Source of the DNA: Selenomonadaceae bacterium
GTDB taxonomy: Bacteria; Bacillota; Negativicutes; Selenomonadales; Selenomonadaceae
Direction: 5' to 3'
Assembly: GCA_017635875.1 (NCBI GenBank)
Contig: JAGBKP010000176.1
Location: forward strand, 1 to 45,667
DNA: 45,667 bases
Shown: positions 948 to 45,102 of the stretch, one piece after another
Layout: the number at the start of each line of letters is the position of its first letter
Numbering within the stretch: position 1 is the first letter of the stretch
The notes under the pieces: generated by a model
Database searches by the model: none
What the model was told of the DNA's origin: nothing
The model's input: the letters and a program-made list of their open reading frames with translations, nothing else
Position numbers and translations under genes: made by a program

Positions 948-1030
948 TTACTTTCTTTTTCTCTTTCTTTTTTGAAAAAAAGAAAAGAGAAAAAGAAAGT
1001 AACAAAGAAAAAGAGAAAAGAAAAAACTTT
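948..1030 (+). repeat. Three-arm purine/pyrimidine repeat A1 (Y-R1-R2)
   Basis: Directly after flgI. Pyrimidine arm 948-973, purine arm R1 975-1002 nearly complementary to it (one-base indel), a single C, then purine arm R2 1004-1030. R2 is the mirror image of R1 around the junction GTAAC; the mirrored core is AAAGAAAAAGAGAAAAG. It ends in ACTTT. It could act as a hairpin terminator for flgI, but the third arm is not explained by that. Confidence 0.8.
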
Positions 1031-1088
1031 ATCAAACTAAAATTTTAAAGTTAATCATTACATTTTTCTTTTTATTTTTATATTAAAA

Positions 1089-1147
1089 TTCTTTTTCTTT
1101 CTTTTGGTACTTTTCTTTCTTTCAAGAAAAAGAAAGAAAAGTACGGT
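1089..1147 (-). repeat. Three-arm purine/pyrimidine repeat A2, opposite orientation to A1
   Basis: Read on the minus strand it shows pyrimidine arm, purine arm and second purine arm with the junction GTACC. The inverted arms share 16 bp (AAAGAAAGAAAAGTAC), and the third arm AAAAGAAAGAAAAAG mirrors R1. With A1 it forms a tail-to-tail pair separated by about 58 AT-rich bases, all within the flgI-flgJ gap. Confidence 0.7.
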
Positions 1148-1611: not shown

Positions 1612-1702
1612 CTACTTTCTTTTCTTTCTCTCTCTTTTTTGAAAAAAAGAGAGAGAAAGAAAAGAAAGTAGCAAAGAAAAGAAAGAGAGAGAAAAAACTT
1701 TA
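1612..1702 (+). repeat. Three-arm purine/pyrimidine repeat A3
   Basis: Starts 14 bases after the flgJ-like stop. The pyrimidine arm CTACTTTCTTTTCTTTC... pairs with purine arm R1 ending GAAAGTAG. After a C the third arm AAAGAAAAGAAAGAGAGAG is an exact mirror of R1 over about 25 bases. The arm sequence differs from A1, yet all three arms differ together. Confidence 0.85.
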
Positions 1703-27330: not shown

Positions 27331-27408
27331 CTACTTTCTTTTTCTCTCTTTTTTTATAAAAAAAGAGAGAAAAAGAAAGTAGCAAAGAAAAAGAGAGAAA
27401 AAAATTTT
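27331..27408 (+). repeat. Three-arm purine/pyrimidine repeat A5
   Basis: Upstream of glgA. Pyrimidine arm CTACTTTCTTTTTCTCTC..., loop ATA, purine arm ending GAAAGTAG, C, then AAAGAAAAAGAGAGAAAA, a perfect 21-base mirror of R1. Confidence 0.85.
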
Positions 27409-27419
27409 ATCAGTTTTTA

Positions 27420-31270: not shown

Positions 31271-31354
31271 GTACTTTTCTTTCTTTTTCTTGAATACCCA
31301 AAGGGCACAGGCGAAAAAGTAAAGAAAAGTACCAAAAGAAAGAAAAAGAACTTT
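31271..31354 (+). repeat. Three-arm purine/pyrimidine repeat A6
   Basis: Pyrimidine arm GTACTTTTCTTTCTTTTTC, loop with AAAGGGCACAGGC, purine arm ending AAAGAAAAGTAC, C, then AAAAGAAAGAAAAAG mirrored. One T interrupts R1. Forms a tail-to-tail pair with A7 in the glgC-glgD gap. Confidence 0.75.
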
Positions 31355-31403
31355 AATATTAAAATTAAGAGATATATAGTAAATATTTCAATTTAGTTTT
31401 AAT

Positions 31404-31492
31404 AAAGTTTTCTTTCTCTCTTTTCTTTTTTGTTACTTTTTTCTTTTCTTCTCTTTCTTTTTCAAGAGAAAGAGAGAAAAGAAAAAAGTAAA
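31404..31492 (-). repeat. Three-arm purine/pyrimidine repeat A7
   Basis: On the minus strand: pyrimidine arm starting TTACTTTTTTCTTTTC, purine arm ending AAAAAAGTAAC, and third arm AAAAAAGAAAAGAGAGAAAG ending CTTTA. One-base indel between mirrored arms. Confidence 0.75.
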
Positions 31493-35368: not shown

Positions 35369-35429
35369 ATATTTCAACTCCCGTTAAGATTGCAATATTT
35401 ATTTTCCTTAAAAGGCATCTCTAAAAACC

Positions 35430-35534
35430 TTACTTTCTTTTTCTCTTTTCTTTTTTGCCTGTCCTCCCTTGCGGAGGGAAAAAAAGAAAAAAAAAAGAAA
35501 GTAACAAAGAAAAAAGAGAAAAGAAAAAACTTTA
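35430..35534 (+). repeat. Three-arm purine/pyrimidine repeat A8 with hairpin loop
   Basis: Pyrimidine arm, loop GCCTGTCCTCCCTTGCGGAG with its own stem CCTCC/GGAGG, purine arm ending GAAAGTAAC, mirrored third arm AAAGAAAAAAGAGAAAAG. R1 has lost some G residues relative to R2. Confidence 0.8.
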
Positions 35535-36245: not shown

Positions 36246-36351
36246 TTACTTTCTTTTTCTCTTTTCTTTTTTGCCTGTCCTCCCTTGCGGAGGGAAAAAA
36301 AGAAAAGAGAAAAAGAAAGTAACAAAGAAAAAGAGAAAAGAAAAAACTTTA
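36246..36351 (+). repeat. Three-arm purine/pyrimidine repeat A9 with hairpin loop
   Basis: The most regular copy: pyrimidine arm exactly complementary to R1 (about 27 bp), loop identical to A8, then C and R2, an exact 23-base mirror (AAAGAAAAAGAGAAAAG core). Confidence 0.88.
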
Positions 36352-41145: not shown

Positions 41146-41378
41146 GTGGAGTTTTAGCATAAATTCTACTTTTCGTTGTGTACTTTTCTTTGCTCGTGCA
41201 AAGAAAGTACCAAAGAAACACGCAAGGGGTTTTCACCCCTTGACCCCACACTTTATTCAACCTATCTTTATTTGTTTTCATTGTGGCGGTTGAAGAAGTT
41301 TTTGGCTGTTTATACTTTTCGTTGTCCGCTAAAACGCCGTCCGGGCGTTTAGGCGGACGCGCCCCGTCCTTGGGGCGC
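41146..41378 (+). repeat. Composite multi-hairpin element C4
   Basis: Between leuD and leuB. GTACTTTTCTTTGC/GCAAAGAAAGTAC with tcgt loop and mirrored CAAAGAAACACGC; hairpin AAGGGGttttcaCCCCTT; ATTGTGGCGGTTGAAGAAG; GTCCGC-[ACGCCgtccGGGCGT]-GCGGAC; GCGCCCCgtcctTGGGGCGC. Confidence 0.85.
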
Positions 41379-42594: not shown

Positions 42595-42828
42595 GTAGAA
42601 TGTTAGCAAATATTTCTACTTTTCGTTATGTACTTTCTTTGCTCGTGCAAAGAAAGTACCAAAGAAACACGCAAGGGGTTTACACCCCTTGACCCCACAC
42701 TTTATTCAACCTATGTTTTTCGTTTTCATTGTGCCTATTGAAGAAGTTTCAGCCCCCGCGACTTTTCGTTGTCCGCTAAAATCGCATCACGCGATTTAGG
42801 CGGACGCGCCTCCGTCCTTGGAGGCGCT
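42595..42828 (+). repeat. Composite multi-hairpin element C5
   Basis: Between leuB and ilvB. Same modules as C4. Terminal part differs in concert: inner stem ATCGC/GCGAT in place of ACGCC/GGCGT, last hairpin GCGCCTCCgtcctTGGAGGCGC. Confidence 0.85.
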
Positions 42829-45001: not shown

Positions 45002-45102
45002 TAAAGTTTTTTCTCTTTCTTTTTCTTTGCTACTTTCTTTTTCTTTCTCTTTTTTTCCCCGCAAGCGGGACAGGCAAAAAAGAGAAAGAAAAAGAAAGTA
45101 GG
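45002..45102 (-). repeat. Three-arm purine/pyrimidine repeat A10 with hairpin loop
   Basis: Minus orientation. Pyrimidine arm, loop GCCTGTCCCGCttGCGGG, purine arm ending GAAAGTAGC, mirrored third arm AAAGAAAAAGAAAGAG. The loop is the A8/A9 loop with its stem replaced (CCCGC/GCGGG for CCTCC/GGAGG). Confidence 0.88.

Follow-up and report, generated by a model that had tools for sequence, protein, structure and literature searches.

The window, by which we mean the whole 45,667-nt stretch of Selenomonadaceae DNA that was analysed, contains nine copies of an intergenic repeat built from three matching arms, several of them with differing arm sequences (Table 1); a stricter scan recovers seven copies. 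In each copy, a pyrimidine arm (Y) is followed by a loop, a first purine arm (R1), the junction GTAxC and a second purine arm (R2), and the + strand at 1612-1702 reads x'TAC - Y - loop - R1 - GTAx - C - R2 - CTTTA. Y and R1 are reverse complements of each other, and R2 mirrors R1, which makes it the non-reversed complement of Y. R1 and R2 consist of A and G, and the arms are mostly 17-25 nt long, with 25 bases for Y at 1612-1702. Read from base to apex, the arms are AAAGAAAAGAAAGAGAGAGAAAAAA at 1612-1702 and AAAGAAAAAGAGAAAAGAAAAAA at 36246-36351, where the same skeleton carries a different arm and a longer loop. Copies are often arranged as facing pairs with starts about 100-135 bp apart and variable linkers, and such pairs mix arms and linkers in many combinations. 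The pair at 948-1144 takes up all of the space that separates the genes at 2-943 and 1179-1598, and the copy at 27331-27409 lies 25 nt upstream of the start of glgA, which is encoded on the - strand.

Table 1. Coordinates of the three-arm repeat copies and of their short relatives in the window
Feature	Position	Strand	Parts and remarks
Copy, one change from perfect	948..1031	+	Y 952-973 (one T missing), R1 976-998, GTAAC 999-1003, R2 1004-1026, tail CTTTA; left half of facing pair with 1084..1144
Facing partner of 948..1031	1084..1144	-	R1 shortened
Perfect copy	1612..1702	+	Y 1616-1640, loop GA, R1 1642-1667, GTAGC 1668-1672, R2 1673-1697, tail CTTTA; cap pair G1641:C1698
Perfect copy	27331..27409	+	Loop AT, tail TTTTA, cap pair A:T
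Degraded copy	31271..31355	+	Long loop; faces 31403-31491
Copy, two changes from perfect	31403..31491	-	Facing partner of 31271-31355
Copy, three changes from perfect	35430..35534	+	Long loop (CCTGTCCTCCCTTGCGGAGGG)
Perfect copy	36246..36351	+	Y 36250-36272, long loop, R1 36295-36318, junction 36319-36323, R2 36324-36346, tail CTTTA
Short relative (GTACTTTTCTTTGCTCGTGCAAAGAAAGTACCAAAGAAACACGC)	41180..41223	+	CACG after R2 can pair with loop CGTG (read from sequence)
Second short relative, same form	42630..42672	+	Pairing read from sequence
Perfect copy	45002..45101	-	Long loop; Y 45076-45097, R1 45034-45056, R2 45007-45028

Shuffling that preserved the runs, with A/G shuffled inside purine runs and C/T inside pyrimidine runs, yielded 0-2 triples over 50 trials, compared with 7 observed in the window. 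Across the whole genome the skeleton pattern produced 392 + 133 matches, a figure inflated by nested starts, versus 3 + 2 for the reversed pattern, and the genome is estimated, from stretches of it, to hold roughly 250 copies. The skeleton is also present at high copy number in two sister species. The comparisons below are based on 174 copies parsed from portions of the window's genome and from portions of two further genomes of the same genus, which together represent three species of one genus, presumably of rumen Selenomonadaceae, all available as draft assemblies. The copies have unique flanks in the three species, and the long form is also found in the named Selenomonadaceae records L138, L195 and L197; one named record with the long form is 92-95% identical to a same-genus genome. 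Searches of Rfam with these three loci and with the short relatives described below returned only sub-threshold, hairpin-like matches at the copies. The order of the parts excludes an intrinsic terminator, that is, a G+C-rich hairpin followed by a T run: on one strand the hairpin is A/T-rich and is followed by the A/G arm R2, and on the other it is followed by GTAx and the gene leader.

Matched changes in the three arms

All three arms match perfectly in 108 of the 174 copies, the remaining 66 being imperfect, and the perfect copies fall into 32 arm types, 27 of which occur in the window's genome and 6 in more than one species. A minimum spanning tree of these types comprises at least 46 changes, every one of them in all three arms, and 25 pairs of types differ by one change. 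The initial annotation, which had compared 1612-1702 with 36246-36351 and reported the same changes across Y, R1 and R2, is borne out in that both copies are perfect and their difference is real; the two copies represent two of about 30 families, however, rather than two states of one site. One-arm changes, a predominance of which had been held in advance to speak against covariation, do predominate within types, with 87 one-arm changes relative to the nearest type among the 174 copies (80 distinct: 38 in R1, 27 in R2 and 15 in Y) versus 8 two-arm changes, whereas between types all changes are three-arm. Since the perfect copies define the types, a three-arm change is scored between types and a one-arm change within a type. 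A test that is independent of how types are defined gave a concordant count: Y and R2 correspond exactly in 141 of the 174 copies, versus 9.1 (maximum 21) when R2 arms were dealt randomly among the copies.

R2 is a true mirror of R1. None of the 28 types in an earlier set has mirror symmetry, and when R2 is taken as a direct repeat of R1 the identity is only 0.67, which rules out a direct repeat in disguise. The argument that a mirror repeat lies beyond the reach of antiparallel copying therefore stands, and because such an R2 nevertheless remains in step across the 32 types, selection on the fold is needed. The alternative offered in the same annotation, a special mechanism that keeps the arms in step, is not needed, because changes within types are nearly all confined to a single arm, with the other two left unrepaired. 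Changes in three arms between families, in one arm within them and rarely in two are expected if well-folded sources spread and inserted copies decay; indeed, the single-arm pattern within types looks like the decay of copies derived from a few well-folded sources. The matched arm changes provide strong comparative evidence for a putative three-stranded fold kept by selection.

R1, which is needed by both helices, has the most one-arm changes, opposite to the prediction of selection on each inserted copy. A reading of this excess as a sign of a direct link between Y and R2 was dropped, as the arms show no significant difference in their numbers of distinct substitutions (P = 0.23). Four copies of one arm type (L026 4506, L031 13094, L035 10847 and L045 10304) share an additional G that is confined to R1 (GAGGAGAG or a close variant); it seems that either a copy with one mismatched arm has spread or a recurrent error strikes R1.

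The cap pair and the folding strand

Covariation also links the base at the start of the loop to the one that follows R2, the combinations being G:C in 111 copies, A:T in 30, A.C in 2 and G.T in 1 (Fisher test, P = 2e-27). As many as 12 arm types include both the G:C and the A:T form, which implies many separate double changes, and the covariation extends to 9 of 10 long-loop copies. The end of R2 would accordingly reach the hairpin apex, which is where a third strand running along the hairpin should end.

A pattern scan that took a single genome for each species detected short relatives of the repeat, with arms mostly of 7-10 bases, in Selenomonadaceae, Clostridia, Bacteroidetes, Spirochaetota and others. 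Among 64 short relatives in other taxa, complementarity between the loop and the bases following R2 averages 3.27 pairs, versus 1.77 when shuffled among copies (maximum of the shuffled means, 2.17 in 500 shuffles), and at least 5 loop pairs are present in 17 of the 64, versus about 1.7% expected. In the short relatives, the cap thus takes the form of a pseudoknot helix with as many as 6 pairs. Pairing of the loop beyond the stem, the hallmark of an H-type pseudoknot, is seen as covariation only and amounts to one pair in the window's genus; on this comparative ground, the cap is the predicted second helix of such a pseudoknot, reduced in that genus to a single pair.

The two short relatives in the window are near-identical, share the 3' extension CAAGGGGTTT(T/A)CACCCCTTGACCCC and form a separate repeat family. 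Prevotella and Bacteroides relatives (L140, L143, L153, L178, L180, L198 and L221) have in common the conserved stretch CTACTTTCTTTC[AG]GTGAGCATGA[CT]GGCGGACAAAGAAAGTAGCAAAGAAACC, in which a three-arm motif and a possible gene start (ATGGCGGACAAAGAAAGTAGC) overlap.

Computed folding of the single-stranded DNA shows only the Y-R1 hairpin, which is predicted to be very stable (z -6.0). A purine third strand (G.G-C and A.A-T) would form on the strand shown and a pyrimidine one (C+.G-C and T.A-T, or U.A-U in RNA) on the opposite strand. The dinucleotide GG is absent from the arm types (0 versus 24 expected, with a minimum of 11 in 2000 shuffles), and also from all 32 types of the full set. Neighbouring C+ repel each other in a pyrimidine triplex, whereas G runs help a purine-motif triplex, so that the absence of GG fits the pyrimidine form and not the purine form. 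Moreover, the opposite strand reads cap-Y2-Y1-loop-R, the classical order of an H-type pseudoknot, with the first loop in the major groove. The pyrimidine form on the opposite strand, as single-stranded DNA or as RNA, is therefore likelier, judging from the sequence, than a fold of the strand shown; G.U-type mismatches show no preference for either strand (9 versus 8). A pyrimidine-motif triplex can also be adopted by RNA, according to the sections of PMC4666352 covered here.

A Watson-Crick partner and a mirror-image third strand within one strand, which the 108 perfect copies possess, characterize the intrastrand triplex motifs or PIT elements (Hoyne and Maher; Holder et al. 2015, PMC4666352). 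In the covered sections of the latter paper, these motifs are counted in thousands of genomes, but footprinting in living E. coli cells gave no sign of an intrastrand triplex fold. As in PIT elements, the pyrimidine, purine and third-strand arms follow each other in this order in one strand, and each genome has numerous intergenic copies, which are associated with variable sites; the repeat would be of class II on one strand and of class IV on the other. In E. coli the motif is rich in G and C, contains GGG runs and has a mirror-symmetric arm (GGGAGAGGG), which makes mirror and direct repeats indistinguishable and a parallel covariation test impossible. By contrast, the arms described here are A/G without GG, are mostly 17-25 nt long and lack mirror symmetry, and the repeat has about 30 covarying types, a covarying cap pair and frequent facing pairs. 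Arms of A/G without GG also set it apart from the TM-ECO motif of E. coli (CCCTCNCCC...GGGNGAGGG...GGGNGAGGG). The covered sections of PMC4666352 describe neither a pseudoknot cap nor arm covariation. By its sequence features, the repeat is a long, GG-free, multi-type and capped variant of the known intrastrand triplex motifs.

The opposite strand further resembles the H-type pseudoknot of telomerase RNA with its major-groove triple helix (PMC4689454), in that a short helix is combined with a pyrimidine loop along a long helix and with a short loop. Unlike in telomerase RNA, the third strand is far longer (up to 25), the repeats are dispersed and have no known RNA product, and the triplex is a prediction.

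Insertion, spread and competing explanations

Of 124 copies, 112 have their Y side close to a gene, either 15-60 nt ahead of a start or 0-25 nt past a stop, versus 40 (maximum 54) under random placement. The median distance is 33 nt from the Y side to the start (85 copies) and 12 nt from the stop to the Y side (52 copies), with genes called by a simple codon-usage script and not by a standard gene finder. For 14 of the 15 comparable copies, no copy is present at the related site in a sister species; at the facing pairs in L030 and L034, the sister species has a short spacer without the pair. The unit therefore inserts, as a defined unit in the manner of a MITE, and because it does so into short spacers (about 40 nt), its distance to genes may simply follow. 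The sole copy shared at a related site (L034-8384 and L084-5216) is alike in place and orientation and has perfect arms that differ between the two species, a difference that might also be due to selection acting in place.

REP/BIME and MITE-type repeats likewise consist of dispersed palindromic units and show facing pairs, mosaic linkers and copies in decay. The present repeat differs from these in its third arm and in that no Y1 transposase was found: PF01797 is absent from the five genomes searched (G000-G003 and G014; four of the five assemblies are 79-91% complete), whereas control genomes were positive. On this count the repeat does not qualify as a REP element moved by a TnpA-REP enzyme. 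At the compared sites, the spacers are too diverged for a target duplication to be visible.

We favour a mobile intergenic repeat, that is, a non-autonomous insertion element, that would be selected for a three-stranded, pseudoknot-capped fold (probability about 0.6). In one self-folding strand, Y would pair with R1 as a hairpin, R2 would run along the full length of the Y-R1 helix to form its third strand, and the cap would be a pair between the first loop base and the base after R2. Sources with three matching arms alone would fold and yield new copies, and inserted copies would decay one arm at a time. If only three-arm-matched sources spread, the arm sequence would drift only through states in which all arms agree. 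Against this reading stand the missing Y1 transposase in the five genomes, the lack of a visible target duplication and of an identified mobilising enzyme, the differing arms at the one shared site and the excess of one-arm changes in R1. The broader proposition, namely a mobile element that spreads through a capped three-stranded single-strand fold, evolves by three-arm compensation and has a short form across many bacterial phyla, is offered as tentative, with the odds against it.

As the selector of the fold, spreading of the element is favoured over a role in the neighbouring mRNA, in which the three-stranded pseudoknot would tune translation or mRNA decay and each copy would be selected in place. 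Tight, orientation-specific placement fits such a cis-acting element, as does the one related site at which two species have differing yet perfect arms. However, 66 of the 174 copies are imperfect, copies before starts and those after stops give opposite strands in the mRNA, insertion into spacers of ~40 nt explains the placement, and G.U-type wobble is preferred on neither strand, making this role unlikely. A still less probable alternative is that double-stranded DNA is under selection, either as an R1-R2 mirror that forms H-DNA under supercoiling or as purine-tract sites for a protein. Although R1-GTAxC-R2 alone is a mirror repeat of the H-DNA type, neither H-DNA nor a mirror pair needs the Y arm, which is kept equally strictly, neither the cap pair nor the loop pairing of the short relatives is predicted, and about 30 differing arms could hardly be read by one protein. 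That a copying process writes all three arms, with no need for selection, is suggested by the rarity of two-arm states (8) next to 46 three-arm differences between types, as if changes jumped to all arms; yet R2 is the non-reversed complement of Y, which we know of no polymerase to make, and one-arm changes are common and left uncorrected, so that we give this explanation little credence. Low complexity, chance or assembly artefact, for which one could invoke the A/G-only arms and the draft assemblies, is negligible in view of the run-preserving shuffles, the 5 matches of the reversed pattern versus 525, the unique flanks in three species and the copies in named records.

A three-stranded fold has been suspected in bacterial repeats and is hard to prove. 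For the insertion element with such a fold that we propose, about 30 natural versions of one three-arm design, together with the cap pair, constitute the kind of comparative evidence that establishes RNA structures, and the natural arm types are ready-made oligonucleotides and controls with which the reality of intrastrand triplex folds can be directly tested.

Sister-species sites without the three-arm repeat often hold a different, G/C-rich intergenic repeat (L087 9150-9310, L090 17590-18470 and L111 2320-2400), and the spacers thus look like general insertion hot spots. In addition, GGGCATCTCTAAAAACC or a near-match precedes several copies (in L021, L023, L039 and L044, and at 35400-35430 of the window) and recurs at the edges of further intergenic repeats of this genus; it is possibly the end of another mobile unit that is used as a landing site.
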